Virus record (IMG/VR): IMGVR_UViG_3300036771_000041
Span: 1-21,426 of that record
Direction: 5' to 3' (one strand)
DNA length: 21,426 nt
Origin: a virus
The position numbers and the translations under genes were made by a program. Position 1 is the stretch's first letter, and each line of letters begins with the position of its first letter. Positions 1,496-21,350 of this stretch are shown here, in pieces. The notes beneath the pieces were generated by a model, which was not told the DNA's origin, made no database searches, and worked only from the letters and a program-made list of their open reading frames with translations.

Positions 1496-1573
1496 TTAAA
1501 GAGCACCCCTTTTGATTAGGAGGTAGATCAACCAGACAAAGGCAATGATTCCTAGGATGGCTAGAATGATCAC
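1496..1573 (-). CDS. 25-residue membrane peptide downstream of DNA polymerase
   Basis: A GTG start at 1573 overlaps the polymerase TGA by a 4-base GTGA. The product has the core VIILAILGIIAFVWLIYLLI, ending KRGAL: almost entirely hydrophobic with a positive tail, as in a single-pass membrane peptide with an inside-positive C-terminus. A GGGGGG run sits four bases before the start. It ends just upstream of the P1 -35 box. The coupling and clean transmembrane pattern support it; function unknown. Confidence 0.5.
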   Translation of the reverse strand: MIILAILGIIAFVWLIYLLIKRGAL

Positions 1574-3933
1574 AGTTCCCCCCAGTGTTTCCCGTAGGAG
1601 ATGTCAACCTTGAAGGGAACGTAATCCGTCCACTCTTCTGCGGAGCGAATCATTTCCTCTTGAAGGATCGCTGCAACCTCTTCGCGGTTGTCCTCATGGC
1701 ATTCCGCAGCCAGGGCATCATGGATCGTGAGTCGGATGTGACCGAGACCACGTAGACGAGGACGTACTCGGATGAGTGCCCGCAAGCAAATGTCTGAAGC
1801 GGTCGACTGTGGCAGGTAGGACAACGCCTCGTTAAGGACGTCAGTACGATTTTCGTCGGTGATAAGGGCAAAGCGTCGGTGGCGCCCGAAGGTAGTGACC
1901 AGATCTTCTCCCCCGAGAACCAATGCCTTAACATCGCCCTGCCAATCTCGGACACGAGGAATAGTGTCCAGGAAGTTCTTGAGGTCCTTCTCGGTGTTCT
2001 TGACAGACCATCCGTACTCTTCAGCGATTGTATACGCTGTGCGTCCGTAGCTGAGTCCGTAGAAGTACGCCTTAACTCGAACTCGCTGGTCCTTGTTGAG
2101 GTCGATGCCTGCGTAGAGCTTCTTGCCCAATGTGATGAAGATGTCAGCATTAGGATCAGCGAAGACGCTCCGTAGGTACTCGTCACGTGCCAGTGTACAG
2201 ATGACACGTCCTTCGGCCTGTGCATAGTCACCATGCACGAAGACGTTCTCTGGCTTACTGACATTGAACTGCTTACGGATGACCTTGTCTCGGTCGATGT
2301 TCTGCAGGTTAGGATTCTTGGATGCCAGTCGACCAGAAGTGGAACCGTGAAGTGAGTACGTCGTATATACTCGCCCACGATACGTTCGTTCACGGATACC
2401 CTTGACATAAGTTCCGTACTTCTTCGCTTCCTTGCGGTTCTCCATGAGGAGGGTAATGAACGCTGCTAGCTTACTGGCAGGATCCAGCTTGGCCAGGATT
2501 GCTTCAAGGTGGTCCACGTCGGTCGAAGCGGTTCTGACTCCATTGTCGTAGAAGAACTCCTTGAGCTGCTTAGGCGAATTTGGATTGATTCCGCCTGCTT
2601 TGTCATAACAATGGTCGCCTGCGAAGCTGTCGAACACTCCTCGGCGATCACTAATGGACTCAATGAACTGCGCCTCAAGCTGAAGTGAGTACTCCTTGTC
2701 GATGTGAATTCCGTTGAGTTCAAGAAACTTGAGTTCATTAGCAGCTGCGACCAAGAAGTCATGGAGCTCTCGGAGCGTCGCACCCGGGACGTCAGGAAGG
2801 AATGAAGGCTGTGTATGCCTTTCCCTTTCCAACTCTCCTTCGAAGTACTCGGCAAGGTCCCATGTGACAGCCAAGTCGTAGGCGTTGTACTTGTAGAGGA
2901 TCGGACGTGGGATAGCGGCATAGTTCTTCCCCACCCCTAGATACTTCTGAATTTCGTGCTCCCACTGCGGAGTCCCTAGGATCTCCACACCTAGGTCCTT
3001 CAGTCTGTGGTATCCCGGGCGCTCGTCGAGACAGTAATGCGCCAGCATGGTATCGAACCACAGAGGGATGTCGCCCAGCAACGGATACAGACCGGCGAGG
3101 TCGAACTTACCATTGTGGCAGATGACCTTGAGCTTCCGAAGCAGGTCACCTAGAGCTGTTCGCACCGCCTGAGACTTACACGCGTTCTCGCCAATGACCA
3201 GTGCTTTGCCCTTGGCGTAACCCAATCCGATGCAGAGCATCTGGTAGCGATTCGGGTGGTCGTAGTCGTTGTCCTTGTCAATGCCGCACTCGATATCGAC
3301 GACAACCTTGTCTGTTCTGTTGGCCAGTTCCCCGAGAGCCTGAAGTGTGTCATCTTCGTCATCTACCACCACATACTGAGGGGGAGCCCACGGCTGCATA
3401 GGTCGCACGAGCTTACCCACATCGTTTGCCAACGATGGAAAGGCATCCCCGTTGCGGAGACAGAACGCAGGGTGGAATGAAGCGACAACCTCTGCCCCTT
3501 CCACTGTGGGGCATACTTTTGGTGGGCCAACTCGAAGCGCAGTGATTCCTTGACCTGTGCTGAGAACGACCTGGGCTGCTGTGTTACCCAGAGCCAGAAT
3601 TTGTCGTGACCCTTCGAGTTCAGCAAGGAGACGAGGTCGACAGCACTCCACCGATCGCTTGGAAGGGGTAGCGTTGTCAGGAGGCCTACAGGAGGTTGCG
3701 TTGGTAAGTAGAGTGTCCCTTCGACTAATGTCATAATGATCCAAGATACGGTTGAGAAGCTTGCCACTGGGTCCCACGAAGGGGACACCACCTCGTGCCT
3801 CCTTGACTCCAGGGGCTTCTCCCACAATAGCAATACCATTCGGTTCCTCCGGGATCGCCGAAGGCACGTAGCGACCTACATCGCGAAGGTCACAATCCTC
3901 ACACCGAGCGAGTGGGTGGTGTCGATCGCTCAC
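1570..3933 (-). CDS. family A DNA polymerase with N-terminal uracil-DNA-glycosylase domain and 3'-5' exonuclease
   Basis: A 787-residue replicative polymerase with three parts. Residues 1-180 are a family 4 UDG-like domain: cluster cysteines C11, C14, C82 and C98 (or C97), motif GEAPGVKE at 38-45, GVPFVGPSG at 49-57, TNAT/CRPP near 77-85 and SFHPAF with H154. Residues about 185-370 are a DnaQ-like proofreading exonuclease with D213-x-E215, HNGKFD (D278) and Y349-N-A-Y-D353. The polymerase region has GRLASKNPNLQNI near 534-546, motif A D569-Y-A-Q-A-E, motif B R617-x3-K621-x3-Y625-G and motif C H738-D739. Motif B has Tyr where E. coli Pol I has Phe762, and motif C has Ala740 where Pol I has Glu. 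No 5'-3' exonuclease domain is present. The start is GTG, overlapping the dpdA stop in a 4-base GTGA. UDG-polymerase fusions are known from other phages such as SPO1. Confidence 0.93.
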   Translation of the reverse strand: MSDRHHPLARCEDCDLRDVGRYVPSAIPEEPNGIAIVGEAPGVKEARGGVPFVGPSGKLLNRILDHYDISRRDTLLTNATSCRPPDNATPSKRSVECCRPRLLAELEGSRQILALGNTAAQVVLSTGQGITALRVGPPKVCPTVEGAEVVASFHPAFCLRNGDAFPSLANDVGKLVRPMQPWAPPQYVVVDDEDDTLQALGELANRTDKVVVDIECGIDKDNDYDHPNRYQMLCIGLGYAKGKALVIGENACKSQAVRTALGDLLRKLKVICHNGKFDLAGLYPLLGDIPLWFDTMLAHYCLDERPGYHRLKDLGVEILGTPQWEHEIQKYLGVGKNYAAIPRPILYKYNAYDLAVTWDLAEYFEGELERERHTQPSFLPDVPGATLRELHDFLVAAANELKFLELNGIHIDKEYSLQLEAQFIESISDRRGVFDSFAGDHCYDKAGGINPNSPKQLKEFFYDNGVRTASTDVDHLEAILAKLDPASKLAAFITLLMENRKEAKKYGTYVKGIRERTYRGRVYTTYSLHGSTSGRLASKNPNLQNIDRDKVIRKQFNVSKPENVFVHGDYAQAEGRVICTLARDEYLRSVFADPNADIFITLGKKLYAGIDLNKDQRVRVKAYFYGLSYGRTAYTIAEEYGWSVKNTEKDLKNFLDTIPRVRDWQGDVKALVLGGEDLVTTFGRHRRFALITDENRTDVLNEALSYLPQSTASDICLRALIRVRPRLRGLGHIRLTIHDALAAECHEDNREEVAAILQEEMIRSAEEWTDYVPFKVDISYGKHWGEL

Positions 3934-4676
3934 GCGGCCATCGCCCAGGTGCTCAGCAGCTCGATGTTGTAGGCGAGTGCCTGTGACTTGTTGATGAACA
4001 CGTCGAAGTACTTATCTGGACGAGAAGCAACTTCACCATCCAGAATGCTCCTGGCATGGTAGGCATAGTTGAAGGGTGCCGAAGTATCGACACCGCGTAC
4101 ACCTGCAATATGGAACTGTCCTTGAAGGTCGTGCAGCTCCCGAATGTATTCAGGGTTCGTACCGAGCAAGTGAACCTGGAACCGACTCGGATGGGTACGT
4201 CGAATGTACAGAGCCAGTTCAGACCTGATGTCGTCCTTATTGCAAGTCGTCATCAGGTGACGTGGGATACCCAGGACGTTGATGTTCTCGTGGTCCGATG
4301 CATAGGCTTCCACACAGGCACAGCACTCGTCAAAGGACTTGCCCTGGACGACACCCATATAGTTAAAGCGGGTGTCGACGCCGAAGCGGAAGAAGTCCTT
4401 GGCCAACTGAAGAGTGTCGTCCATGTAGCCCAGAACATCTGGAACGACGATCTCGTTGACCATCAGGCCCAGAGCCATCGAACGTAGCTGCCCATGTGAC
4501 AACAGGTTACCTTCAGCAGCACCGTTATCCATGATCAGGTAGTTGCCCTGACGCCGAGCATTGATGTAGGCTTCCTGGTACTCAGGGTTGCCTAGGTGCT
4601 CTGGAAGAACCAACTGGTAGTTAGTCCTCTCGACGGTCTTCATAAGGCTGTACGGTGGAATCAGTGCCAGTTTCAT
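3930..4676 (-). CDS. dpdA: DpdA-like DNA guanine transglycosylase
   Basis: A 248-residue protein of the tRNA-guanine transglycosylase superfamily in its compact phage form; bacterial DpdA is much longer. These enzymes exchange a guanine base for preQ0 or a relative, here presumably in phage DNA. Visible signatures are MDNGAAEG with D50, VPDVLGYMDD with D80, YMGVVQGKS at 106-114 and a later VLGIPRHL strand, consistent with the TIM-barrel core and its two catalytic Asp residues. A strong AAGGAAAGG ribosome site precedes the ATG. It overlaps the upstream small gene by 56 bases and the polymerase start by 4. The full preQ0 pathway in the same window (folE, queD, queE, queC) is the best support for a DNA-modifying role rather than tRNA modification. 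Confidence 0.85.
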   Translation of the reverse strand: MKLALIPPYSLMKTVERTNYQLVLPEHLGNPEYQEAYINARRQGNYLIMDNGAAEGNLLSHGQLRSMALGLMVNEIVVPDVLGYMDDTLQLAKDFFRFGVDTRFNYMGVVQGKSFDECCACVEAYASDHENINVLGIPRHLMTTCNKDDIRSELALYIRRTHPSRFQVHLLGTNPEYIRELHDLQGQFHIAGVRGVDTSAPFNYAYHARSILDGEVASRPDKYFDVFINKSQALAYNIELLSTWAMAA

Positions 4677-4866
4677 ACCAGTACCTTTCCTTCATCAGGC
4701 CCAGAGAGAGCAGCTGCATGTCGACCTGGCCACCGCCCTGAGAAAAGGACATCGTGGTCAGCACGTAGTGCCGCCACTTTCCACCAGGCAGTTCCAAGGT
4801 TATGCGCTGACCGATCTCGGCCATGATCACTGTATTGCTAGTCGGCTTACGCTTCCAAGGCCACAT
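4621..4866 (-). CDS. hypothetical 81-residue protein
   Basis: Starts at ATG 4866, just after the stop of the 45-residue membrane peptide, and overlaps the dpdA start by 56 bases. The N-terminus is basic (MWPWKRKPTSN). The centre looks beta-rich (IGQRITLELPGGKWRHYVL, then GGGQVDMQLLSLGLM), and the tail is acidic (YEDRRED). No family recognised. Reality is supported by the contiguous spacing and protein-like composition. An internal ATG (MAEIGQRI) 14 codons in is an alternative start. Confidence 0.55.
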   Translation of the reverse strand: MWPWKRKPTSNTVIMAEIGQRITLELPGGKWRHYVLTTMSFSQGGGQVDMQLLSLGLMKERYWYETGTDSTVQPYEDRRED

Positions 4867-4869
4867 GTG

Positions 4870-5007
4870 TCACCACAGGTTGATGTATTGGACTGCCTTG
4901 ATAGTCAAGCCAGTCAGGATAAGCATGATCAGGATCGAGAACCACAGGCCGATGAACCTGCCCCACTTGGCAGGATCCGGTCCGCGCTTCTTCTCGGGGT
5001 CGTACAT
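4870..5007 (-). CDS. 45-residue single-pass membrane protein
   Basis: Starts at ATG 5007 behind a GGAGG ribosome site six bases upstream. The first 17 residues are charged (MYDPEKKRGPDPAKWGR), followed by a hydrophobic stretch (FIGLWFSILIMLILTGLTI) and a short tail KAVQYINLW. This predicts one membrane span with a positive segment on the inner side. It lies between the 113-residue gene and the 81-residue gene. Function unknown. Confidence 0.65.
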   Translation of the reverse strand: MYDPEKKRGPDPAKWGRFIGLWFSILIMLILTGLTIKAVQYINLW

Positions 5008-5008
5008 A

Positions 5009-5350
5009 TTAGCCTCCACTGGGTGTGAACCCGTGCTGAGGACGCTCCTGGTTCATCATGCTGGCGACCTTCTGGTTACGCCACTCGTCGAACTCCTTCT
5101 GGTGTTCAGCGATTTGGAGCTGCATCATACGCATCTTGATGTAGCTATACCGTGCGTAGTTGGACAGGTCGAGCACCTCGAACATGGCCTCTTCCATCAT
5201 GTCCTTGCCGAGGAAGGCGAAGGCACCGTACTGAGTGGCCCCCATGTTGTGTCGCTCCTGGCACCGCACATCGAACTCGTCACTCAGTTGCTTAACCAAG
5301 TCGACGAGTATCGTGATCTCCGGCTGCTCAACCTGCTGTTCGTCAGTCAT
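5009..5350 (-). CDS. possible all-alpha NTP pyrophosphohydrolase (MazG-like superfamily)
   Basis: A 113-residue, highly helical protein. The region ERHNMGATQYGAFAFLGKDM, followed by MEEAMFEVLDLSNYARYSY, resembles the acidic E-x3-E-x2-D and LDxxNY pattern of phage MazG-like and DUF5664-type dNTP pyrophosphohydrolases. The C-terminal part is a charged helix and then a Pro/Gly tail. Its ATG overlaps the mazG stop (TGATG), so the two would be made together. If the assignment holds, both trim nucleotide pools, perhaps alongside 7-deazaguanine synthesis from GTP. The family call is tentative because the first acidic pair of the MazG motif is not obvious. Confidence 0.5.
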   Translation of the reverse strand: MTDEQQVEQPEITILVDLVKQLSDEFDVRCQERHNMGATQYGAFAFLGKDMMEEAMFEVLDLSNYARYSYIKMRMMQLQIAEHQKEFDEWRNQKVASMMNQERPQHGFTPSGG

Positions 5351-5658
5351 CAGAACCTCTCCTGGTTGATCTTCTGCTTGACGTAGTATGCTGCGGCCAA
5401 GTCAATCTTAGCAATGGCACAGATGTTCAGAAGGTAGATGAAGACGTCAGCTAGCTCACCCTGCAGGAGCTTCTCTGCCTCATCCCTTTCCAGACTGCCG
5501 CGCTGGAGCTTCTTGACAATGTTGGCTACTTCACCAACCTCGCCACACATCGCGAGCGCATGGTGTCCCAGGTCTTCGGCAGTGTCGGGGAACCACTGCT
5601 TGGACGCTTCGTGCGACTCTTCTGCTAGCGCACGGAAGATGGCACTGAGATTAACCAT
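5350..5658 (-). CDS. mazG: MazG-like nucleotide pyrophosphohydrolase
   Basis: A 102-residue single-domain MazG protein. The motif CGEVGEVANIVKK supplies E40 and E43, and GELADVFIYLLN supplies E68 and D71; together they form the ExxE...ExxD magnesium site that hydrolyses NTPs or dNTPs to the monophosphate. I chose the ATG at 5658 because it overlaps the folE stop (ATGGTTAA) and has a TGGAG site upstream. The in-frame extension to 5745 would run deep inside folE and gives no MazG-like sequence. Phage MazG proteins are thought to adjust nucleotide pools or (p)ppGpp in the infected cell; which substrate applies here cannot be read from the sequence. Confidence 0.85.
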   Translation of the reverse strand: MVNLSAIFRALAEESHEASKQWFPDTAEDLGHHALAMCGEVGEVANIVKKLQRGSLERDEAEKLLQGELADVFIYLLNICAIAKIDLAAAYYVKQKINQERF

Positions 5659-6403
5659 TACGGATCCACTCCAGGAACTCGGCCTTCGCTGTACGGGTGT
5701 GATCTGCGAAGACACCAGACACTTCGGACGTTGTAGTGATGACACCTGCAGTACGAACGCCGCGCATCGCCATGCACATGTGCTCAGCCTTCATGACTAC
5801 TGCCAGGCCCTTAGGCTGAAGCCTGGAGTTCAGGAACTCGTGTAGTTCAGTAGTGAGCTCTTCCTGGACGTGGAACCCCTTGGATACATATCCCACAGCT
5901 CGTGCGAACTTGGACAGGCCAGCGATCTTCTCGTCCGGAACGTAACCGATCCAAGCGTTGCCATGGAAGGGCAAGGTATGATGTGCGCAGAGGGTGTAGA
6001 AGGGGATCGGACCAAGAGTGATCATGTTCTGCGACTTGGCCTCGAAGGTCGTGAACTTGAACTCTTCGCGAATCGTCAGTTCCTTCATGGCCTCAGCCAG
6101 ACGACGTGGCGTCTCCCTGTGGTGTTCCTTGTCCAAGTTCACACCGAGGCTGCGCAGGAACTCTTGTGCCGCCTGCTCGCTCTGATCGTACACAGCTTCC
6201 TTGGCTACGAAGAGAGACTGGCGAGCAGGTAGCTTCATGCTAGGAATGAGTGGCATATCGTTCCTGCTACGCCTAGCATAGTCAGCCTGCTGCTCTTCGA
6301 GAGTCATCGACGCGTACGACTTAACACATTGTGGGTGTCCATCGTTCGGGTAGTGCGTCACGTCCTTGCCACGATCCTCATCAGCGTTGACGTAATCAGC
6401 CAT
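5651..6403 (-). CDS. folE: GTP cyclohydrolase I, first step of preQ0 synthesis
   Basis: A 250-residue type I GTP cyclohydrolase, converting GTP to dihydroneopterin triphosphate, the substrate of QueD. Zinc ligands are visible as C139 and H142 in YTLCAHHTLPF and C210 in EHMCMAMRGV. The core motifs GYVPDEKIAGLSKFAR and QEELTTEL fit the family. The usual CEHH reads CAHH here, so the neighbouring Glu is Ala. The first 65 residues are a charged extension without recognisable similarity. Start at ATG 6403 is preferred: it has GGAG eight bases upstream and overlaps the queD stop. The ATG at 6418 has no ribosome site. Location between queD and mazG points to 7-deazaguanine rather than folate synthesis. 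Confidence 0.93.
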   Translation of the reverse strand: MADYVNADEDRGKDVTHYPNDGHPQCVKSYASMTLEEQQADYARRSRNDMPLIPSMKLPARQSLFVAKEAVYDQSEQAAQEFLRSLGVNLDKEHHRETPRRLAEAMKELTIREEFKFTTFEAKSQNMITLGPIPFYTLCAHHTLPFHGNAWIGYVPDEKIAGLSKFARAVGYVSKGFHVQEELTTELHEFLNSRLQPKGLAVVMKAEHMCMAMRGVRTAGVITTTSEVSGVFADHTRTAKAEFLEWIRNG

Positions 6404-6908
6404 TGATGATCTCCGCATTCTGGTTATACGGCACCACCTGGGTGAAGGTAGCAGAGTTGATGTTACCCTCCCAGAGCTCTACGGCTACGATCCACAGGTC
6501 TCCCTGGAACTGGTCCTGCAGCTTCAGGCAGATAGCCTCGGCCACAGACTCCACAGTGGGCCAGGGCTTGGGTAGGTAGTCCACCTCTTGGCCATCGGGT
6601 GCTTCGCCGAAGATGAACGTCTTGCAGCCGTCATCCGTCAGTGCAGTGAGTAGATTGTCGTTGCCGCCGATCATCATGCCGTGGTCAAGATGCCTATCGA
6701 TCCACTGCCTTATGACCTTCTTGACGGAAGAGAAGTCGACACTGATGCCATTCTCATCTACGCCACCAGGGAGTTCGTAGGCCTGGAAGTGAATCCTCGC
6801 TCGCCACGTGTGTCCGTGAACGTTGGTACACTTTCCGCCCAGGAAGGGCAGTCGATGCGCCGCCTCGAACGTATGTTCTACAGCAACTGTCACCTGACCC
6901 ATCACCAC
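6396..6908 (-). CDS. queD: 6-carboxy-tetrahydropterin synthase (QueD)
   Basis: A 170-residue member of the PTPS/QueD family, which turns dihydroneopterin triphosphate into 6-carboxytetrahydropterin, the second step to preQ0. Zinc ligands are H19 (FEAAHRLP), H31 and H33 (NVHGH); the catalytic Cys is C27 in GGKCTNVHGH. Further family signs are DFSSVKKVI near 59-66, DRHLDHGMM, WPTVESVAEAI and VELWEG. The start is either GTG 6908 or ATG 6902, three consecutive candidates (GTG GTG ATG) after an AAGGAG site. GTG 6908 has the closer spacing of five bases, and ATG is eleven away. It is the first gene after the GTCTA-rich spacer II and overlaps folE. Confidence 0.93.
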   Translation of the reverse strand: MVMGQVTVAVEHTFEAAHRLPFLGGKCTNVHGHTWRARIHFQAYELPGGVDENGISVDFSSVKKVIRQWIDRHLDHGMMIGGNDNLLTALTDDGCKTFIFGEAPDGQEVDYLPKPWPTVESVAEAICLKLQDQFQGDLWIVAVELWEGNINSATFTQVVPYNQNAEIING

Positions 6909-7054
6909 GAAGTCTCCTTAAGTCTAATCAAGATCAACTTCTACCGTTAAAGCTCTACGCTGAGCTTGGACAAAAACTGTCTAACGAAAGTCTAGCTATG
7001 GACAAAGCGCGGACAATCACCGCTTGAGCTCTCGCTGATCGCCCGCGCTTCACG
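6909..7054 (-). promoter_or_regulatory. GTCTA-motif spacer II upstream of queD
   Basis: No gene is seen. The part from 6909 to about 7010 holds GTCTAA at 6922 and 6981, GTCTAG near 6991 (minus strand TAGAC-TTTCGT-TAGAC, 11-base period) and two GGACAA words. It includes copy 2 of the 16-base repeat directly before the queD ribosome site. No member of the P1-P5 promoter family is present, so queD expression must come from read-through or another promoter type. Confidence 0.4.
6920..6935. repeat. 16-base repeat aagtctaatcaagatc, copy 2
   Basis: Exact match to 718-733. On the minus strand it reads GATCTTGATTAGACTT and ends directly before AAGGAG of queD, so it lies in or just before the 5' leader. 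TAGACT inside it could serve as a weak -10, but there is no good -35. Confidence 0.7.
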
Positions 7055-7132
7055 TCAGAGCCAGCCGAGCCAGTGACGCCACCAGCTATGAGGTATGTGA
7101 CCTCTGCACCAGCGACGTGGACAGGCGTACAT
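7055..7132 (-). CDS. possible 25-residue Trp/Arg-rich peptide
   Basis: An ATG overlapping the stop of the 96-residue gene (TGATG) opens a 25-codon frame encoding MYACPRRWCRGHIPHSWWRH with a short end WLGWL. It has two Cys, three His, five Trp and five Arg, which could form a tiny metal knuckle. There is no clear Shine-Dalgarno site, so translation would depend on coupling. It is short enough to be chance; the unusual composition and exact overlap are the only support. Confidence 0.35.
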   Translation of the reverse strand: MYACPRRWCRGHIPHSWWRHWLGWL

Positions 7133-7422
7133 CAGACCCAGGACTTGTGATAGTCCTGGTCAGTCATCTGATACCAGACAGCACTGTCGTCAGGCACGAC
7201 GAACCAGTCGGTATTGTTCAGCAAGATGATCGGGTACCCAGGATTCCGAATGAACAGAGTACCGGGATCGTTACCTGCGATGGCATACTGCTGACCAGCG
7301 TACTGCGAAGCAGTAGTGGGAACGAGACCGAGCCAGGTCTGGAAGTCACTCAGGTTCGTCGTGTCCCACTGCATCGACTTCGCAGTGGCCAGCTTCTGAG
7401 TAACAGATGCGGGAGTTGCCAT
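7132..7422 (-). CDS. hypothetical 96-residue protein after queC
   Basis: An ATG-started protein whose beginning sits beside the queC stop, preceded by AAGGAGAAC. The sequence starts helical (MATPASVTQKLATAKS) and then alternates aromatic and hydrophobic residues (LFIRNPGYPIILLNNTDWFV), suggesting a small alpha-plus-beta domain. It ends MTDQDYHKSWV. No cysteines and no known motif. I do not recognise the family. Position in the queC operon does not by itself indicate a role in the pathway. Confidence 0.7.
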   Translation of the reverse strand: MATPASVTQKLATAKSMQWDTTNLSDFQTWLGLVPTTASQYAGQQYAIAGNDPGTLFIRNPGYPIILLNNTDWFVVPDDSAVWYQMTDQDYHKSWV

Positions 7423-8207
7423 CAGTTCTCCTTCGTCGTCGGTTCGAAGTCGACGCTCTCGATAAGCCGACCACTTAATGCTTGTGCCTCCTGGAAGGAA
7501 ATCCTGTTGATACCATTAGCATAGTGACCACCGACGCCGGTCTCCGCGTAGTCGGTCGGGTCCTCGACGCCTGCAAGGAAGAACGCTTCCTTGCGCTCGA
7601 CACAGGTACCGCACTTGCCGCAGTGCTTCTCGCCACCCTTGTAGCACGACCAGGTCTCGGAGAAGTCCACTCCGTGCTGCATACCGATGGAGACGATTTC
7701 CGCCTTGGACACAGTGAGCCAGGGTGCGTAGATCTGGAACTGCGGGTGGATGAAACCCTGATTGGCAACGTGCAGAGTCGCCTCGAGCGTCCGAACGAAC
7801 TCGGGACGACAGTCCGGATAGATGGCATGGTCACCCGCGTGCACACCCAGACCCAGGAGCCAACCACCCTCGTTGATGCAGGCAGCAGCAGCGATGCTGG
7901 CCATGATCATGTTGCGGTTAGGTACGACCGTCTGCTTCATGCTCTCGTGTTCGTAGTGACCCTCAGGTACGTCACGGTCACCCACAAGAGCCGACTTCGT
8001 CAGCAGTTGCGACACACTGGTCAGGTCGATGACCTTCCAGTCCAGACTGCTCAGGTTGTCGACGTGGTACTGAACGAAGTCCAGTTCCTTCTTGTGCTTC
8101 TGTCCGTAGTTAAAGGACAGCACCTTCACGTCGTTGCTGATGTCGTACATTTGGTACAGCATCGCAATACTGTCCATACCACCACTGACTACCGCGATGT
8201 TAGTCAA
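7422..8207 (-). CDS. queC: 7-cyano-7-deazaguanine (preQ0) synthase QueC
   Basis: A 261-residue QueC that converts 7-carboxy-7-deazaguanine, ATP and ammonia to preQ0. The PP-loop SGGMDS is at 8-13. The zinc cysteines are C188, C196, C199 and C202 (WSCYKGGEKHCGKCGTC). The stretch VPNRNM near 95-100 is also typical. It exceeds common QueC lengths by a C-terminal tail of roughly 40 residues. There is no N-terminal glutamine amidotransferase, so it is not the Gat-QueC type linked to amidino-dG. The start must be TTG at 8207, since the preceding in-frame codons include a stop; it overlaps the primase-helicase gene by 8 bases and has only a weak ribosome site, which may limit its translation. Confidence 0.93.
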   Translation of the reverse strand: MTNIAVVSGGMDSIAMLYQMYDISNDVKVLSFNYGQKHKKELDFVQYHVDNLSSLDWKVIDLTSVSQLLTKSALVGDRDVPEGHYEHESMKQTVVPNRNMIMASIAAAACINEGGWLLGLGVHAGDHAIYPDCRPEFVRTLEATLHVANQGFIHPQFQIYAPWLTVSKAEIVSIGMQHGVDFSETWSCYKGGEKHCGKCGTCVERKEAFFLAGVEDPTDYAETGVGGHYANGINRISFQEAQALSGRLIESVDFEPTTKEN

Positions 8208-10401
8208 AGTTCACCACCAGTTTCTGCTTCTGTTTCTTTTCAACCGGGAAGTAACGTTCTCCTCTTCCTACCTTATGCATTGTCACTAGTCCACGTTGCA
8301 TCAAGGTCTGGAAGATGTTCCCTGCATCTCTTGCCTGCAGATGGTAGCCTTGCATTAGCCGCGAACGAGAGATGCCAGGGTTCCTCTTGATGGCTTCTAG
8401 AACCTTCTGGAGCTCACGTTCGTTGGTCGTAATGCCGATGCCATCGACTACCTGGTTCGTGTAGTCGCGCCATTGCTCTACGAACCGGATTGCATAAAGC
8501 ATGTCGACCAGTTCTACAGTGACCTCAACGCCAGGCTCCACCAGGTTCTTACTAGCAGCTGCAAGGACAGCCACCTTAAGGCCCGACTTACACAACCGGT
8601 CGTACGTCGGTGTCATGATCTCAGGCTGCGCTGCCTTGAGCCCTGACTTCATCATATCCTGTTCGAGCAGATTGTATCGTGCCCACGCAGCAGGTGTGAG
8701 CTGTGCATTCCAACTAGCAGGAGCGGAGTACACGATCCTACCGTCACGTCGCTCAAGCTTCGGCTCGGTGAAATAATGCTGGCGCATTCGTTGCATCGCA
8801 GCCATGATTGTGTCACGCCCTGTGGTATCCCGAGCTGTGGGAGGACCCAGCGGTTGGACGCGTGTCACATCTGACTCTGCCGTGATGAAGACAAAGCGGG
8901 GGATGAATCCAGAGCTGACGTGTTCGTGCGTAAGCAGGCTGCATACCTTGTTACGAATGCCACCTGCAAACAACATCAGGACTGGATCCTTGACCTCGAT
9001 CGTCTCCTTCTTCAGGATTCTTTTCTGTAGCTTACCGTCATAAAGCTTGGTAAGCGTCTCTGCCATGCCCGCATAGTAGTCCTTCTTGTTCAACGCATCC
9101 AGTAGTCCGCTGAATTCGTCTCGCAGGAAGATCGACGGTTGACTAGGCCTGGTAGAGAGGGAAGACATCAGTCCCTCGATCGAACCATCGGTCGCAAGAA
9201 TGGTACTGCTGTCTACCTCCTCGAGCAGATCCATTGCAATGTCCATCGCTGTTGACTTACGGGTCAGCGTGGTATCTGCCAGGATCATGAACCACAGGTT
9301 GGGCTTTATAACACCGAATGAGGTGGGCAACCTCACGGCGCCGGCGAGTAGTGCTGACAGGATAACGAATGCTCCTGCCTGGTGGTACTGTGGTGCAGCG
9401 TCACCTAGCGAACTCGCCCACTTGATGTAATCGTCAGCGAATGTACTGTAACCTTCGAGCTCTTCACGTTCACGGTCTAGGAGGAGAGGTGCAAGATGTA
9501 CTTCGGCTGGCGACATGAGCTTCTGGTTCTCTTGGAACCTCAGCCATGCCTTGAGGACATCCTTCCAGAGCTGGTGCGCTGGCCGACCATCTCGCCGGAA
9601 CTTATTACACTTCGAATCACGTGCGACGATATATACTTCTTCTTTGCTCATCCCCCCTTCGAAGCACATCATTTCCAGATTCCACAGGGCCTTACTCCAG
9701 TCGACACCCTTATCGGGTTCATTGTTGTAGTGCATGAAGGCCTGTGGAGGTAGATCGTTGTCGTACTTCTCGAGGAGCTCGTCGCCTGTGAAACTGGGGA
9801 GGGCTTCGGGAAGCTGTTCGTCCTTCTCGGTAGTCTCCGCCAAAACCGGATACTTGGAGAAGTCCGAGATTCGATACTTGTCTCGCCTATGCTCTAGGAT
9901 TCTGACAGGTACCTCATCATATTCCGGCTTCCTATTGTAGGTACCCGGAATACGCATCAGTTGGGTTAGGTCCCAACCGCTCTTGTCTGCCCCCTGGAAG
10001 GCATGGTAGTACGCGATCCGCTTGCTGATGCTCTCCGCATCAAACGGGTCGACAGGATCTTCGAACGCCCAATACGCCTGGTAACGATTGGGGGATGTCT
10101 CAATCTCAAACGTAGGCTTGACTACGCAGTTGTTCGGGTGACACTCGTCAAGATCTGACCAAGCGTTGGTGCATGTTGCTACACTGTCTTTGTTCCTCTT
10201 GGGCCGAGAGAGTAGCTGCGGACAGAAGTACACGTTATGTGTAGCCGACATCGTATTGATGCGCTCTTCGATCTTATCCCGTTCGCCGGGCCAGTGGTGG
10301 AACTCCTCTGCGAAGTTCCGCATGCCCGGCCTAATGAACGCGATGCAGAGATACCCTGTCGCTTGCCCGAAGAGGTGTTCAAGAAAGGAACCGTAAATCA
10401 A
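8200..10401 (-). CDS. primase-helicase (PrimPol-like domain plus P-loop ATPase)
   Basis: A 733-residue replication protein. The N-terminal third resembles archaeo-eukaryotic primases of the RepB/PrimPol type: WSDLDE with D83 and D85, ETSPNRYQAYWAF at 101-113 and the family motif DLTQLMRIPGTYNRK at 144-158. A middle region carries a divergent Walker A ADTTLTRKST (375-384), in which the first Gly is Ala, and a Walker B SIFLRDE (423-429), as in DUF3987-like phage helicases. The C-terminus (ELQKVLEAIKRNPGISRSRL onward) reads as a winged helix ending in a Lys/Gln-rich tail. The start is TTG 10401, with GAGAGGG eight bases before it; a later ATG (M27) would remove conserved sequence. It lies between the ssDNA-binding protein and queC. 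Confidence 0.8.
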   Translation of the reverse strand: MIYGSFLEHLFGQATGYLCIAFIRPGMRNFAEEFHHWPGERDKIEERINTMSATHNVYFCPQLLSRPKRNKDSVATCTNAWSDLDECHPNNCVVKPTFEIETSPNRYQAYWAFEDPVDPFDAESISKRIAYYHAFQGADKSGWDLTQLMRIPGTYNRKPEYDEVPVRILEHRRDKYRISDFSKYPVLAETTEKDEQLPEALPSFTGDELLEKYDNDLPPQAFMHYNNEPDKGVDWSKALWNLEMMCFEGGMSKEEVYIVARDSKCNKFRRDGRPAHQLWKDVLKAWLRFQENQKLMSPAEVHLAPLLLDREREELEGYSTFADDYIKWASSLGDAAPQYHQAGAFVILSALLAGAVRLPTSFGVIKPNLWFMILADTTLTRKSTAMDIAMDLLEEVDSSTILATDGSIEGLMSSLSTRPSQPSIFLRDEFSGLLDALNKKDYYAGMAETLTKLYDGKLQKRILKKETIEVKDPVLMLFAGGIRNKVCSLLTHEHVSSGFIPRFVFITAESDVTRVQPLGPPTARDTTGRDTIMAAMQRMRQHYFTEPKLERRDGRIVYSAPASWNAQLTPAAWARYNLLEQDMMKSGLKAAQPEIMTPTYDRLCKSGLKVAVLAAASKNLVEPGVEVTVELVDMLYAIRFVEQWRDYTNQVVDGIGITTNERELQKVLEAIKRNPGISRSRLMQGYHLQARDAGNIFQTLMQRGLVTMHKVGRGERYFPVEKKQKQKLVVNFD

Positions 10402-10510
10402 GTTACCATCCCTCTCGGACTATGAAGTGGTGGGCGCCTGTATCAGGACTTATTGGTAGGTTCCTGAAAAGCTTCGTGGGGCTACTACCAGGCCTGGGCC
10501 GGTCATTTAA

Positions 10511-10536
10511 GGTCAGCCAGCACGTGTGAGCTGACC
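10511..10536 (-). terminator. hairpin between ssDNA-binding protein gene and primase-helicase
   Basis: A perfect 7-base stem, ggtcagc at 10511-10517 with gctgacc at 10530-10536, and a 12-base loop containing cacgtg. On the minus strand it follows the ssDNA-binding gene by about 17 bases, and TTAAAT comes after it, a weak U-run. It may be a partial terminator lowering primase expression, or a protein-binding dyad. The rest of the 151-base gap (10402-10552) has a CCAGGCCTGG palindrome and no convincing gene. Confidence 0.4.
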
Positions 10537-10552
10537 CCCACCACAAGGGACG

Positions 10553-11032
10553 TTACGGCAGGAGGGATCCGGCCTTCTTCTTCGCCCCGCCACCGGCGAC
10601 GCTGCTGAGCTTGGTGCCCTCGACCCACGGAGCGATCGACTTGACCTCGTTGCTCTCGTCGTAGTTCTTGTCACCGACCGTACGCTCGGGCCGGATCGTC
10701 ACGCGCACAACGACGTCGCGACTGATCAGGTCCTCAGGGTCCGGAACCTCGAACTCGCCGGAGCGAACATCGTAGCCCAGAGCCTTCATCAGCTGCGAGA
10801 AGGTGTAGAGAGCACCCTCGAACAGCATGCAGTTGGTCCAGACCTTCTTGTCCGCGTACTCACCATCCTGGACGGTGAACTCGATGCCCCAGTACGGCTT
10901 GCCGTTGTTCTTCTCCGACTGGGACTCACGGAGGTCGATGTCCGTGATCTTCACGTGGTAGTAGCCACGCGGGATCGGCTTGCGCGCCTCACTCGAGGCT
11001 TCCTCCGAAGAGAAATTAACCTTCAGACCCAT
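10553..11032 (-). CDS. DUF669-like single-stranded DNA-binding protein
   Basis: A 159-residue protein with the pattern of phage DUF669/OB-fold ssDNA-binding proteins: GYYHVKITDIDLRES, then NGKPYWGIEFTVQDGEYADK and KVWTNCMLFEGALYTFSQLM, followed by a helix with LGYD and a final strand VVVRVTIRPE. The C-terminus is Gly/Lys-rich (GGGAKKKAGSLLP) rather than the acidic tail of bacterial SSB. Its start lies beside the stop of the Sak4-like gene. SSB-like proteins next to Sak4-like ATPases are a known single-strand annealing pair in phages. The assignment rests on pattern and neighbourhood. Confidence 0.75.
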   Translation of the reverse strand: MGLKVNFSSEEASSEARKPIPRGYYHVKITDIDLRESQSEKNNGKPYWGIEFTVQDGEYADKKVWTNCMLFEGALYTFSQLMKALGYDVRSGEFEVPDPEDLISRDVVVRVTIRPERTVGDKNYDESNEVKSIAPWVEGTKLSSVAGGGAKKKAGSLLP

Positions 11033-11033
11033 T

Positions 11034-11813
11034 TTAGTTGCTCGTTTCCATTACGGTTTCGGTTTCGATGTATTTCATGATTTCCGCCATGGTCGGTTCG
11101 ATCATGAGTTGCGGAAGCTTATTCGTACGGTCCTTAGCCGTACAGGTGTCCGTGGCCTGTGCCAGAAGGAGGTGACCCTGACGAGACTCTCCGTCAACCT
11201 CGATCTCCTTCATGTACATGAAACAGACGATGTCGAGGAATGCTGCGACCTCCTTGGCCAACTTGCCCGAGAGGTAAGGCTCCTTGATCAGCATCCCAGT
11301 CTTGTTGTCCTTCTCGACCTTGACTAAGGCCGTGAAGATTGTGTTGACGGGCAGGTCTCGGAACGCGCGTACGAACTTTCGCATCTGTTCCAAGTTGATG
11401 CCCCACTCACGCATGGACGGGACGTCCTCGTCGCGCTCCGAGTTCTTCTCCAGGAGGTTCTTCATGATACTGTACATGTTGAACTTCTGGATCTCGGTCA
11501 GCGAGTCCAGGATGACGGTGCGGTACTTGTGGTTGCCTGCGTTCAGCTCGTCGTAGACGCCCTGCACATCCCTCCAGGACTCCACACGCACAGTGTCGAC
11601 GTTGGGGTAGGAGTGCTTGAGGGTCTCGGTTCCACCCTCGAAGTCCACGCACAGGACAGACCGCATGGAGGGTACGTCATCGGATGATCCGGCCAGTCGC
11701 GTCTTCCCGACACCACTGTCGCCGTAGATCATGATGTTCAGGTTCGATTCTCGTTCGCCTGCCTTGACGACCTTGAGGCCGGCAAACTTGGAAGGGGTGA
11801 GTAGTTCAGACAC
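11034..11813 (-). CDS. Sak4-like RecA-family recombination ATPase
   Basis: A 259-residue AAA_24-type protein. Walker A is GDSGVGKT at 31-38 after the strand NIMIY; the Walker B strand RTVILDSLTE (D103) follows; LCVDFEGG near 54-61 is typical of the family. Sak4 proteins are short RecA-core ATPases that promote single-strand annealing together with an SSB, matching the DUF669-like gene immediately downstream and the exonuclease upstream. The start is GTG 11813, overlapped by the small membrane ORF. The later half is helical and contains RAFRDLPVNTIFTALVKVEK, a probable core strand and loop region. Confidence 0.85.
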   Translation of the reverse strand: MSELLTPSKFAGLKVVKAGERESNLNIMIYGDSGVGKTRLAGSSDDVPSMRSVLCVDFEGGTETLKHSYPNVDTVRVESWRDVQGVYDELNAGNHKYRTVILDSLTEIQKFNMYSIMKNLLEKNSERDEDVPSMREWGINLEQMRKFVRAFRDLPVNTIFTALVKVEKDNKTGMLIKEPYLSGKLAKEVAAFLDIVCFMYMKEIEVDGESRQGHLLLAQATDTCTAKDRTNKLPQLMIEPTMAEIMKYIETETVMETSN

Positions 11814-11883
11814 GGTATGCTCCGTATGAGAAGACGACTACCAGGACGAACAAACACAAAATGCAGTAGAGCCTGTACAGCAA
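11806..11883 (-). CDS. possible 25-residue membrane peptide
   Basis: A TTG directly after the exonuclease stop, nine bases from an AAGGGG ribosome-like site, opens a frame encoding the core LLYRLYCILCLFVLVVVFSY and the end GAYRV. It would be one transmembrane segment with basic residues at both ends. Its TGA overlaps the GTG of the Sak4-like gene, so it fills the gap between the two recombination genes exactly. The rare start codon and small size keep confidence moderate. Confidence 0.45.
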   Translation of the reverse strand: MLYRLYCILCLFVLVVVFSYGAYRV

Positions 11884-13134
11884 CTACTCGTTCCCCTTCG
11901 ACTCTGTTGAAGGCACTTTCTCTTCCCAGTAGTGGTAGCGTCGCTTGTCGAACATCGTCGACAATGTGTACAGGAAATCCTCACCCTGATTCTCACCGAT
12001 GCACGGCTGCCTGAAGGCGCAGGTGTTACAACCGAAGCGTCCAGCGTTGGGATAGATCGCCAGGTTGGGATTGGTCATGTCAAGCGCTTCGAGGTAGATG
12101 TTCTTAGCAGCCTGCTTCAGCTCGGTCTCGTTCCTGTGGACGGTCATCCGCTGGTGGAAGACGCCACCGTTCTCCTTGAGCCAGTCCAGGTACTCGTCGT
12201 ACACACCCATCACGTACGCACCGTTGTCGTTCTCCTCGACGGTACGCTTGTAGATGTCGTAGTTAGTATCCTGTGACTTCGACACGCTGTACATGCAACC
12301 CAGGCGACGACGCGTCATAGGCTCAGGCTCTTCGGGGAAGCCCTTCTTCTGTTCGTGGTAGACAAATCCGGCGATGCGGATTCCGATACTCCACAGGGCC
12401 CAACAGTAGCGGGTGATCTGGTCATCGATGAGAAGGAACTCTTCCCTGTCGCCTGCTAGCTGAGCGGCTGTCTTCCAGTCCACAACCCAGTAGCGTCCAT
12501 CGACGCCTTCGAAGATAGCGTCGATGCGGCCGCCGTAGGTAACAGGCAGGCCATCCCAGTTCTTCCGCTCCCACATGCCGTCGCGAGTTGGAGGGTACAG
12601 TGTCTCGCAGTAGGCGGTGTAGCGTGACCAGCAGGTATCGCATTTGCACCGGAGCTGCTCGTTGGTGTCAGGGTTGACAACCGGGACCTCGAATCCGATT
12701 TCCACCTTGCGGGGGATCAGATCCTTATCGAGAGCGGGTGAAACCTCATTGGCGTGGTACAGGATCATACCCTCGCCTAGAGCCATACGCTCTTCGTAGT
12801 CCTTCTTGATCTCGGAATCGAGGTCCCGGCTCGTGATGTTGTGCGCTACACAGTAGTCAAACAACTGCTCCTGACACTTCTGCCTGAAGGCCTGGACTGC
12901 AAGGGTCGTAACGACGTCACGAGGCTTGTCCCAGAGCTCCGGAGTATAGAAGACCTCCATCGCTTTGTGGTAGGCCGTACCGAACTCGAGCGGCTTGGCC
13001 GTCGTACGTGGGTACCAGAACTCGCGGAAGATCCAGTTCCACCTACGCCTACAACCACGGAAGGACTTCGACTCGGAAGTGTGCAACGAGTGCACCAGCT
13101 TCGCGTCGATGTAGTCCTGTACAGTCAGGAGCAT
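11884..13134 (-). CDS. Cas4/RecB-like exonuclease of the PD-(D/E)XK superfamily
   Basis: A 416-residue nuclease. Active-site candidates are GTAYH (H56), E145 in VEIGFEVPV, D205 in GGRIDAIFE, D219-x-K221 in VVDWKTA and a QxxxY motif at DDQITRY (Q239). A probable iron-sulfur cluster is formed by C28 (SFRGCRRR) with C369, C372 and C378 (CNTCAFRQPC), the split arrangement of AddB/Cas4. An extra cluster, CKCDTCWSRYTAYC at 163-176, sits between E145 and D205 and could bind a second metal. The enzyme would resect DNA ends for the Sak4-like ATPase and the ssDNA-binding protein that follow. It is the first gene after promoter P2, with an AAAGG site nine bases before the ATG. Confidence 0.85.
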   Translation of the reverse strand: MLLTVQDYIDAKLVHSLHTSESKSFRGCRRRWNWIFREFWYPRTTAKPLEFGTAYHKAMEVFYTPELWDKPRDVVTTLAVQAFRQKCQEQLFDYCVAHNITSRDLDSEIKKDYEERMALGEGMILYHANEVSPALDKDLIPRKVEIGFEVPVVNPDTNEQLRCKCDTCWSRYTAYCETLYPPTRDGMWERKNWDGLPVTYGGRIDAIFEGVDGRYWVVDWKTAAQLAGDREEFLLIDDQITRYCWALWSIGIRIAGFVYHEQKKGFPEEPEPMTRRRLGCMYSVSKSQDTNYDIYKRTVEENDNGAYVMGVYDEYLDWLKENGGVFHQRMTVHRNETELKQAAKNIYLEALDMTNPNLAIYPNAGRFGCNTCAFRQPCIGENQGEDFLYTLSTMFDKRRYHYWEEKVPSTESKGNE

Positions 13135-13178
13135 GTGCTCGAACCTTTCGTCTGGTTCGCTGAACTGTTGATACTACT

Positions 13179-13208
13179 ATTATATATGATCCCCACTCGG
13201 GAAATCAA
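13179..13208 (-). promoter_or_regulatory. promoter P2
   Basis: On the minus strand, -35 TTGATT at 13208-13203, an 18-base spacer and -10 TATAAT at 13184-13179. The spacer starts TCCCGAGTGGGGA, a CCC-N5-GGG dyad shared with P5. The predicted leader before the exonuclease ATG is about 38 bases. It lies just after the queE stop, so it starts a new transcription unit. Confidence 0.75.
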
Positions 13209-13222
13209 CGGTGACTTTTATG

Positions 13223-13978
13223 TCACTTGTCCTCTTCAGCACCAAAGAGGAGCACATGGTCACGTAGCGTCATGTTGAACCGGCGAGCGAGGATGTCGTT
13301 CTCGAGCTTGCGAACCGTCTCGAGCAGCTTCGGACCGTTCTCACCTTCGGGCATGATCCAAACACGATCCGGTGAGATGTCGTGGCTTCCCACAATCCGG
13401 TCGATCTCCGTAAAGTCCGATGACTGCTGGACCACGAACTTGAAGTCAGCACCCAGCGCGTCGAACTCCTCGATCACCTCTGGAATGTACCGCTCTTCGA
13501 TACTGTTTCCACTATGCTGCAGCTTCGGGCTTACGTTCCACTGGATCGGCAAGCCAGTGCTATACGGAATCTGTCGCGGCGACTTCGTGCCGCTCGTCTC
13601 GAAGGACAACTGCCAGTCCAAACTGTCGTCCTCGAATGCCCGAACCAGCTTCTCCATGGCGTCGATCTGCAGCAACGGCTCCCCACCGCTAATGATCACG
13701 AGACCACCCTGCGGCATCATCCCGCCCAGCTCCGCGACAGCACCTTCGACGGTGACTCGCCGCATCTCCTTAGCAGGGTCGTAAGGCGTCTCGACCTTGC
13801 CGTGAAGTGCAACCTGACGCTCCGTGAACACCCACGTGAAGGGGGTATCGCACCACGTGCAGTGGAGGTGGCACCCACCGGTACGAATGAAGCCGGCGTA
13901 CTGCCCGCGCTGCCGACCCTCACCCTGCCAGATCGGACCGTAGATACGAGTGACCAGGAGGTCACGGTTCTCAGACAT
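13223..13978 (-). CDS. queE: 7-carboxy-7-deazaguanine synthase QueE (radical SAM)
   Basis: A 251-residue radical SAM enzyme that rearranges 6-carboxytetrahydropterin to 7-carboxy-7-deazaguanine. The cluster motif is C36-x3-C40-x2-C43 (GCHLHCTWCDTPFTW), preceded by GPIWQGEGRQRG, which is characteristic of QueE. SGGEPLLQ (97-104) and a VSPKL strand are further family signs. Length is normal. The gene ends about 15 bases upstream of the P2 -35 box. It closes the long P3 operon of small proteins and is about 5 kb from queC and 6.5 kb from queD, yet on the same strand. Its role is to supply the QueC substrate for DNA modification. Confidence 0.93.
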   Translation of the reverse strand: MSENRDLLVTRIYGPIWQGEGRQRGQYAGFIRTGGCHLHCTWCDTPFTWVFTERQVALHGKVETPYDPAKEMRRVTVEGAVAELGGMMPQGGLVIISGGEPLLQIDAMEKLVRAFEDDSLDWQLSFETSGTKSPRQIPYSTGLPIQWNVSPKLQHSGNSIEERYIPEVIEEFDALGADFKFVVQQSSDFTEIDRIVGSHDISPDRVWIMPEGENGPKLLETVRKLENDILARRFNMTLRDHVLLFGAEEDK

Positions 13979-16634: not shown

Positions 16635-16936
16635 GCCTCACTTTTGGGGCCGTAAAGAGCCCACAGGAGGTCTAGCTTGTGTTTCACTGCCCTATAACGA
16701 CTGCGCTCATCGTCGGGGAGATCACGAACAGCGAGGTGCTTGTAGGAGGCGTCCTTACTTGCCATAACTAACTCTTCGTAGGCCTTGAATATTCCCATGA
16801 TCAGTTCTAGGTCGCGGAGTATCAGGAAGTCTGCGATGTTGCCTCTGCCATCAACAGTAGGCTTCTCGACCATGTCGGTAGTGAAGTCGTCGAGCATGTT
16901 CACTATCTGCTTACGGAGCAGGAGCATACTTGCCAT
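16631..16936 (-). CDS. hypothetical helical protein, 101 residues
   Basis: ATG 16936 overlaps the helicase stop (TAATG), with GAAGGG upstream. The protein is predicted mostly helical: SMLLLRKQIVNMLDDFTTDM, then FLILRDLELIMGIFKAYEEL and a basic C-terminal helix (RSRYRAVKHKLDLLWALY). It could be a small partner of the SNF2 helicase because the two are coupled. No known motif. Confidence 0.6.
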   Translation of the reverse strand: MASMLLLRKQIVNMLDDFTTDMVEKPTVDGRGNIADFLILRDLELIMGIFKAYEELVMASKDASYKHLAVRDLPDDERSRYRAVKHKLDLLWALYGPKSEA

Positions 16937-18486
16937 TACAGCCAGCCCTTCTCGAGGTCTTGCATGGTCAGTTCCTGCTGGTAGTCCAAGACGGAGTCGC
17001 CTAGAATTTGCTGTAGCCACGTCCACTGCTCGTTCAGTTGCTGGTGCCGACCAAGGTCAACGGTGTTCCTGGCCATGAAATCTGTGACCTGCACCGCATT
17101 CTTCTGCCCCACCCTGTGGAGTCTGTCCTCGGCCTGCCTGTTGATCGCTTGCTTCCAGCTTCGGTCGATGAAAACGACATGCGAAGCCCTCGTCAAGGTG
17201 ATCCCGACGCCACCAGATTGGATAGTCCCAGTCATGCACTTCAGCTTTCCTTCCTGGAAGTCGCGGATGTGCTGACGCCGTGTCTGCTCGGAAACGTCGC
17301 CTGTGATCATTCCGTATGGCATCCCTTCCTTGGCCATGTGCTTAGCCAACAGGTTGACAGCGCTCTTGAACTGGGAGAAGATGACCACAGGCTCGACCGA
17401 ATCCTCAAGCAGGTCCATGGCGGCATTGATCTTCACCGACGGATCAATGATGTTGTAGCGGCGGGCATTAACGATTCGCCACTTCCAGTTGTGCTTCGGA
17501 TCGAACTCACGTTCTCGGTCGTACTCTTCGGTCTCCCTATTCGGATCCCAACGCTTGTTCAGCTGCCTCTTCTGGTAGTGCTCTGCCTGAATCGATCCTA
17601 CTGCGAACTGCTGCAGACGGATCAGTCGAGTGATGGCCTCGGGAGCAGGTAGAGGCTCCTCGTCACCCTTATTGCTCTCGACCCAGGTGAGCTGCGACTT
17701 CCGGATCTCGTCGTAGGCCTTACGCTGCTGCGGAGTCAGATCGACCCACTGCGTCGTGTAGTACTTCTCCGGAAGATCCTTCAGAACCTCTTCTTTACGC
17801 CTACGCAAGTAAAAAGGTTCTATACCCTTCAGCAAACGATCCGTGTTCTTGACGCCTGTGATCTTGTGATAGCCCTGTGGAGTCAGTGTATATTCCACAT
17901 GGTCTTTATAGAAGCGCCAATACGAGGTATATACACGCGGCTTGAGCCAGTGTAACACACTCCACAGGTCATGGGGCTTGCTGTCTGCGGGCGTTCCGCT
18001 TGCGGCGAACTTGTTTTCGGTGTGCAAAGACCTAACGGCTTGTGTCATCTGGGTCTTGCGGTTCTTCATGCGATGGCACTCGTCAGCAATGACCGAGAAC
18101 CATTCGACACGCTTCAGTGACTCCTTCAGGAGCCGTAGTGCATCCCAGTGAATGAGGTAGACCTGGTAAGGCTGCTTCAGCGCTGCCCTGAACGCTTCGC
18201 GGTCCTTTGGGTCGATGCAGTAAACCTTCAGACCGGGAATCATCCAGGCGTAGTGGTCTTCCCAGCTACCCAAAACGGTCAACGGTGCAATGACGAGGGT
18301 CTTGGATGACATCCGACCCTTCTCGAGGCGCCACTCACGATCGGTGGCGATGGCCTCGAGCGTCTTGCCGATACCCATGTCGTCGCCACAGAGAACGTGG
18401 TCGATGTCCTTGAACTTCTTGAGCGCCTCTTCCTGGTAAGGAAAGAGTTCATAGTGCGGTTCCAGCTGTTCCGCCAGAGTCTTCAC
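16936..18486 (-). CDS. SNF2/superfamily 2 helicase
   Basis: A 516-residue superfamily 2 ATPase. Motif I is GDDMGIGKT (34-42) after LFPYQEEAL, motif II DECH (135-138), motif III SGTPADS near 163-169, motif V TIQSGGVGITLT (421-432) and motif VI QAEDRLHRVGQ (451-461), the last being typical of SNF2-type translocases. Phage members act in replication or recombination, remodelling DNA-protein complexes. A charged insert of about 35 residues (near 305-340) lies between the two RecA lobes. The start is GTG 18486, with AGAGG seven bases upstream; it overlaps the upstream gene by 38 bases. It is the largest gene of the P4 operon. Confidence 0.9.
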   Translation of the reverse strand: MKTLAEQLEPHYELFPYQEEALKKFKDIDHVLCGDDMGIGKTLEAIATDREWRLEKGRMSSKTLVIAPLTVLGSWEDHYAWMIPGLKVYCIDPKDREAFRAALKQPYQVYLIHWDALRLLKESLKRVEWFSVIADECHRMKNRKTQMTQAVRSLHTENKFAASGTPADSKPHDLWSVLHWLKPRVYTSYWRFYKDHVEYTLTPQGYHKITGVKNTDRLLKGIEPFYLRRRKEEVLKDLPEKYYTTQWVDLTPQQRKAYDEIRKSQLTWVESNKGDEEPLPAPEAITRLIRLQQFAVGSIQAEHYQKRQLNKRWDPNRETEEYDREREFDPKHNWKWRIVNARRYNIIDPSVKINAAMDLLEDSVEPVVIFSQFKSAVNLLAKHMAKEGMPYGMITGDVSEQTRRQHIRDFQEGKLKCMTGTIQSGGVGITLTRASHVVFIDRSWKQAINRQAEDRLHRVGQKNAVQVTDFMARNTVDLGRHQQLNEQWTWLQQILGDSVLDYQQELTMQDLEKGWL

Positions 18487-21347: not shown

Positions 21348-21350
21348 CTC

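Follow-up and report, generated by a model that had tools for sequence, protein, structure and literature searches.

Does an uncultured phage that carries the genes for the guanine analog 7-cyano-7-deazaguanine (preQ0) put this base into its own DNA, and is DNA the molecule on which the exchange takes place? The question is raised by IMG/VR virus record IMGVR_UViG_3300036771_000041, a 21,426-base fragment of an uncultured phage that was analysed over its whole length (the window) and gave no match by megablast against 50,697 phage records. A first-pass annotation of this sequence had recognized folE, queD, queE, queC, and a compact gene resembling dpdA, and all five open reading frames were found on the minus strand where it had placed them. 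We consider that the phage makes its own 7-deazaguanine and swaps it for guanine in its own DNA by means of the compact DpdA, mostly as 2'-deoxy-7-cyano-7-deazaguanosine (dPreQ0), and we give this reading a probability of about 0.72.

The four preQ0 genes are genuine and intact, as judged by Pfam, NCBIfam, and PHROGs profiles (Table 1) and by their motifs. FolE has CxHH and a later EHMC, QueC has SGGMDS and a four-cysteine zinc motif, and QueE has C36-x3-C40-x2-C43; QueE also matched the Radical_SAM and QueE NCBIfam models at about 1e-19. The folE gene stood as called, but it is better read from position 6418 than from the in-frame ATG at 6403 chosen earlier. Compared with the related contig L010 (79% identical), the ratio of nonsynonymous to synonymous substitution rates (dN/dS) was 0.12 for queC and 0.17 for folE, which overlaps mazG.

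The 248-amino-acid (aa) product of the dpdA-like gene alone had no match in Pfam or NCBIfam, a single-sequence phmmer search of the PDB gave nothing useful, and the PADLOC DpdA model was matched weakly (E 3e-4). When a profile of 84 relatives was compared with PDB sequences, the bacterial DpdA 7ui4 was the sole significant match (E 4e-5). The AlphaFold model of the protein (predicted local distance difference test, pLDDT, 96.8; predicted template modelling score, pTM, 0.93) likewise had 7ui4 as its top Foldseek match (E 1e-6, 22% identity), with tRNA-guanine transglycosylases (TGTs) next, and VIA-align gave a Z of 16.3 for both 7ui4 and an archaeal (archaeosine) TGT over about 225 residues (root-mean-square deviation 3.3, 226 residues aligned). 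In hhalign, D197 aligned with D264 of E. coli Tgt (the D of FDCVMP), the known nucleophile of that enzyme, and D50, within a DNG/DNS motif, is the counterpart of D89 in the Tgt DSGG by motif only. Six residues (D50, N51, E55, H169, G172, and D197) were invariant in the 84-sequence alignment (84/84). The CxCxxC...H zinc-binding motif, present in E. coli Tgt, occurred in 0/84 of the compact rows. Because the fold and profile matches and the aligned catalytic aspartate agree and the zinc motif is absent, the protein is, on its predicted structure, an enzyme of the TGT/DpdA superfamily pared down to a bare, zinc-less barrel. The earlier call of a DpdA-like transglycosylase was thus upheld, the predicted structure falling inside the superfamily. 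The gene is under purifying selection (dN/dS 0.11 against L010).

Genes for preQ0 are common to the queuosine route, and some phages have them without dpdA (PMC6884629); the genes of the window might then serve queuosine synthesis in host tRNA and not phage DNA. We regard this as very improbable. PF01702, the canonical TGT profile, had no match in the window but matched in all 14 control genomes, and the non-canonical, zinc-less enzyme is linked to a polymerase gene. Moreover, apart from cross-matches to FolE, the window and 14 related records (12 contigs and two cultured phages) yielded no QueF, and no QueA or QueG was seen. QueF matches in Bacillus phage BSP7, Weizmannia phage Youna2, and two contigs were rejected, as they lie in folE genes (tunnelling-fold cross-matches).

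The same 14 records, several of them 42-55 kb, and the window contained no GATase_6; ArcS was not searched for. Since neither QueF nor GATase_6 was found, preQ0 is the likely end product, and the first-pass reading of a complete preQ0 route and a DpdA-type enzyme, with QueC unfused and no QueF visible, was borne out. Because this gene content is that of group 2 of Hutinet et al. 2019, dPreQ0 is the first guess for the base, by analogy with characterized relatives. dPreQ0 is present in the DNA of group-2 phages that have these genes: it replaces 28% of G in Rosebush and 32% in CAjan, and CAjan without dpdA had none (PMC6884629). To that extent the earlier prediction of dPreQ0 agrees with group 2, but the base cannot be told from the genes alone: Campylobacter phages were reported to be highly modified by 2'-deoxy-7-amido-7-deazaguanosine (dADG; PMC6884629, citing Crippen et al. 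2019). The compact DpdA might therefore use an earlier intermediate of the same pathway and yield dADG, or 2'-deoxy-7-carboxy-7-deazaguanosine (dCDG), instead of dPreQ0. This is possible, though on the whole we think it rather unlikely. The compact family contains a protein of Campylobacter phage CP220, and ADG is made by QueC en route to preQ0 (PMC6884629 Fig. 1), but the window belongs to a clade of its own, distant from CP220, and dPreQ0 is the base of phages that combine the same genes with a longer DpdA. Several points weigh against dPreQ0 insertion as we propose it: these Campylobacter phages, bearing a relative of the compact DpdA, carry dADG and not dPreQ0; the NCBIfam scores of QueE are under the curated cut-offs; and, since the window covers only a 21 kb piece of the genome, a tailoring enzyme may be encoded beyond its ends.

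Relatives of the compact DpdA were found in metagenomic viruses and in named phages, namely BSP7, Youna2, Cellulophaga phage phiST, Flavobacterium phage immuto, in which the protein is already annotated as DpdA, and Campylobacter phages such as CP220. Altogether, BLAST joins the proteins of 176 loci, which are 217-295 aa long, into a single family. This family has no BLAST link to the 304-385 aa DpdA (DpdA1) of 9g, CAjan, Dp-1, and a Rosebush-genus phage, and hhalign of the compact family against a two-sequence DpdA1 alignment gave no meaningful match. The enzymes of CP220 and immuto reportedly belong to the DpdA3 subfamily of Cui et al. 2023, in which the Campylobacter type is reportedly tied to complete guanine replacement. 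Among 84 compact-DpdA loci less than 65% alike, many of them on short contigs, a gene for QueE lay no more than 6 kb away in 57, one for QueD in 52, and one for QueC in 51. In the tree, mazG and orf113 mark a single clade of 23 rows (support 100/97) that includes the window. Kinases are the neighbors typical of the CP220-type clade and of the BSP7 branch; the window and CP220 fall in separate deep clades of the same compact family by sequence. We also observed, in 11 Campylobacter/Flavobacterium-type loci, a 175-aa formyltransferase-like family encoded 3' of dpdA (for example, L009, 15822-16349). It is absent from the window and is possibly a preQ1 formyltransferase.

The five genes had been described as dispersed through a replication region. 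This holds for queE, the sole pathway gene outside the cassette, which lies upstream of the exonuclease gene. The others are not scattered: queC, orf96, queD, folE, mazG, orf113, and dpdA are contiguous (8207 to 3930) between the primase gene and the gene of a uracil-DNA glycosylase (UDG)-PolA polymerase. The interpretation as a whole was partly borne out; it had overlooked that the genes form a single cassette, of which MazG and a 113-aa gene are members as well. Read in the direction of the minus strand, the genes run helicase, small genes, queE, exonuclease, Sak4, DUF669, primase, queC, orf96, queD, folE, mazG, orf113, dpdA, and polA. Among relatives retrieved with the DpdA of the window and that of the related contig L002, the order exonuclease-Sak4-DUF669-primase-queC-queD-folE-mazG-orf113-dpdA-polA recurs as far as each contig extends. 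Because the same order recurs and dpdA is under purifying selection, the cassette is not a product of chance.

Presence and absence were compared among relatives found by a polymerase scan, all of which had 3 kb or more of DNA upstream and which were thinned at 90% identity. In the 40 relatives with dpdA, folE was present in 40/40, mazG in 37/40, orf113 in 38/40, and mazG and/or orf113 in 40/40. The three relatives without dpdA retain Sak4, DUF669, primase, and polA in order, but folE, queD, queE, queC, mazG, and orf113 are each present in 0/3. The cassette thus comes and goes as a whole, with mazG and orf113 among its members. A similar primase-to-polymerase layout with a single small gene in between was seen in Arthrobacter phage Anansi.

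The position of queE varies within one phage group. It lies in the queD-folE interval in L002 (7975-8664), L021, and L022, and upstream of the exonuclease gene in the window (13223-13978), L011, L013 (93-770), L017, and L019. The upstream QueE proteins of L013, L017, and L019 share only 27-29% identity with the QueE of the window, compared with 60-85% for other genes. We read this pattern as repeated replacement of queE alone in this phage group.

At the other end of the cassette, dpdA and polA overlap by 4 bases (GTGA, 3933-3930), as had been noted before and as we read directly. The two genes overlap in 62/69 relatives and are mostly close in the others, the overlap lengths being approximate because the start was taken as the farthest in-frame start. 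This conserved tight junction supports co-expression of dpdA with the polymerase. It had been taken earlier as a sign that modification is timed with replication; co-expression fits the junction, but it shows neither the timing nor whether the substrate is DNA or a nucleotide. The polymerase has an N-terminal uracil-DNA-glycosylase domain (PF03167), and similar full-length matches were seen in SPO1-like phages.

In the mechanism that we favor, FolE, QueD, QueE, and QueC would turn GTP into preQ0, and the compact DpdA would remove guanine through a covalent intermediate at Asp197 and insert preQ0, giving mostly dPreQ0. Expression of dpdA alongside the replicative polymerase, with which its gene overlaps, would keep the enzyme on hand during DNA synthesis, and the altered guanines would protect the DNA against restriction enzymes, a known anti-restriction strategy, as in characterized relatives. 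MazG may trim deoxynucleoside triphosphates, which is a guess. Known TGT and DpdA enzymes swap bases in polynucleotides, and exchange in a polynucleotide would be the simplest reading.

The cassette neighbors suggest another route, in which the exchange takes place in the nucleotide pool. MazG would yield dGMP or lower dGTP, DpdA would swap guanine for preQ0, kinases would rebuild the triphosphate, and PolA would incorporate it, comparable to the PurZ/MazZ phages. Put in terms of the cassette, MazG and orf113 would ready the substrate or remove dGTP, a dPreQ0 nucleotide would be made by the zinc-less DpdA, and the UDG-PolA would incorporate it. Both forms appear unlikely to us; the second, if true, would allow full guanine replacement. 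Consistent with the pool route, mazG and/or orf113 occur in all 40 dpdA-positive relatives and in 0/3 of the others, the compact DpdA lacks the zinc subdomain, and a gene for a MazG-type protein, orf113, or a P-loop kinase lies within 3 kb of 45/73 compact-DpdA loci versus 0/14 longer-DpdA loci. However, the neighbor pattern follows the clades and thus represents a handful of events, not 45, and the contrast is biased by hidden Markov model seeds taken from the compact set; the p-value of 1e-5 for neighbor genes counts related loci and these biased seeds and was not used as proof. Post-replication insertion is reportedly what Cui et al. 2023 argued for, which we count against the pool route, as we do the polynucleotide substrates of known TGT and DpdA enzymes. 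For Campylobacter phages, a route through modified dGTP had been put forward when no DpdA was yet known in them (PMC6884629), and MazZ of cyanophage S-2L, a MazG-type enzyme, converts dGTP to dGMP for base replacement (PMC8342488). On the other hand, the que cluster of Shewanella phage S0112, with a queuosine tRNA-ribosyltransferase-type gene, likewise includes MazG (PMC6893657), the window yielded no dedicated kinase, and although the metal motif of the MazG here (GEVGE...ExxD) is intact, its nearest solved relatives are dCTP pyrophosphatases (dCTP pyrophosphatase 1), with MazZ matched only at E 0.06. For orf113, no relative was found in Pfam, PHROG, the PDB, or the 50,697 phage records; its model was moderate (pLDDT 75) and had no Foldseek match.

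Table 1. Genes of the preQ0 cassette and the neighboring replication genes in the window
Feature	Coordinates	Strand	Evidence and remarks
UDG-DNA polymerase I fusion (polA)	1570..3933	-	PF03167, PF01612, and PF00476
Compact DpdA-type guanine transglycosylase, 248 aa (predicted)	3930..4676	-	catalytic Asp D197, D50; without zinc motif
orf113, small all-helical protein between mazG and dpdA	5009..5350	-	conserved motifs GAxKYG and ExxDLxNYARY
mazG-like nucleoside triphosphate pyrophosphohydrolase	5350..5745 (likely true start near 5658)	-	PF03819 over cut-off; PHROGs
folE, GTP cyclohydrolase I	5651..6418	-	PF01227 E 3e-49; phrog_2197
queD, 6-carboxy-tetrahydropterin synthase	6396..6908	-	PF01242 (QueD/PTPS) E 1e-25; phrog_2389; CxxxHGH motif
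orf96, small protein between queC and queD	7132..7422	-	kept in close relatives only
queC	7422..8207	-	PF06508 E 2e-55; TIGR00364 over cut-off
Primase/helicase (RepB-primase N-terminus, DUF3987)	8200..10401	-	profile matches; upstream border of cassette
DUF669	10553-11032	-	profile matches; replication/recombination backbone (10553..13134)
Sak4	11034-11813	-	profile matches; replication/recombination backbone
PD-(D/E)XK exonuclease	11884-13134	-	profile matches; replication/recombination backbone
queE, radical S-adenosylmethionine 7-carboxy-7-deazaguanine synthase	13223..13978	-	phrog_2076 E 9e-38; CxxxCxxC; apart from main cassette

Outside this region, an HNH_3 endonuclease-like open reading frame lies at 804-1139, downstream of polA, and is retained by most relatives. 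The end of the window (21242-21426) carries two neighboring tRNA genes on the minus strand, one of which is tRNA-Trp. A defence island at the SNF2 protein (16936-18486) was considered and rejected, since its matches to DpdE and Zorya reflect generic helicase similarity.

The relative L002 encodes an Rv2525c-like glycoside hydrolase, and the nearest cultured primases are those of Microbacterium, Gordonia, and Arthrobacter phages. Therefore, an actinobacterial host is likely. The window probably comes from a lytic tailed phage. Two pattern sets searched against 84,980 bacterial and archaeal genomes yielded no confirmed relative of the compact DpdA, which fits lytic phages. The combination of a compact DpdA and a complete preQ0 route is common and long established among uncultured phages of soil and other environments. 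As to how the compact-DpdA lineage attains its level of modification, mazG and orf113 offer concrete candidates. Moreover, close relatives that have the entire cassette can be set beside others that lack it, such as L276, which makes for a clean natural comparison, and base exchange in DNA versus nucleotides becomes directly testable.

Compared with known systems, the closest fold is that of 7ui4, whose HLLG and D-x-x-x-P motifs align with the DpdA of the window; however, 7ui4 is a 436-residue chain and belongs to Dpd restriction-modification islands. The group-2 phages share FolE, QueD, QueE, QueC, and a DpdA with the window and, as far as the window extends, the lack of an amidotransferase, and in CAjan dpdA likewise lies beside clamp and polymerase genes, but their DpdA is longer and has no BLAST link to the compact family, and MazG and orf113 were not found alongside it in the set used here. 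CP220 and immuto have a compact DpdA of the same family with the same invariant residues, although it is about 20% identical to that of the window and has kinase neighbors instead of MazG and orf113; immuto additionally carries QueF and a formyltransferase-like gene. BSP7 and Youna2 match the overall gene order of the window (helicase-exonuclease-AAA-primase-queC-queD-queE-folE-...-dpdA-polA) and have a compact DpdA with a dpdA/polA overlap of 8 bases. They differ in a P-loop kinase-like gene between folE and dpdA in place of mazG and orf113, and their DpdA, annotated as hypothetical, is about 25% identical to that of the window. The preQ0 gene set with DpdA is therefore already known as group 2 of Hutinet et al. 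2019, to which the window adds a member; what is new, to judge from the contigs, is a large uncultured lineage, probably of actinobacterial phages, in which MazG and orf113 are near-constant members of the cassette.

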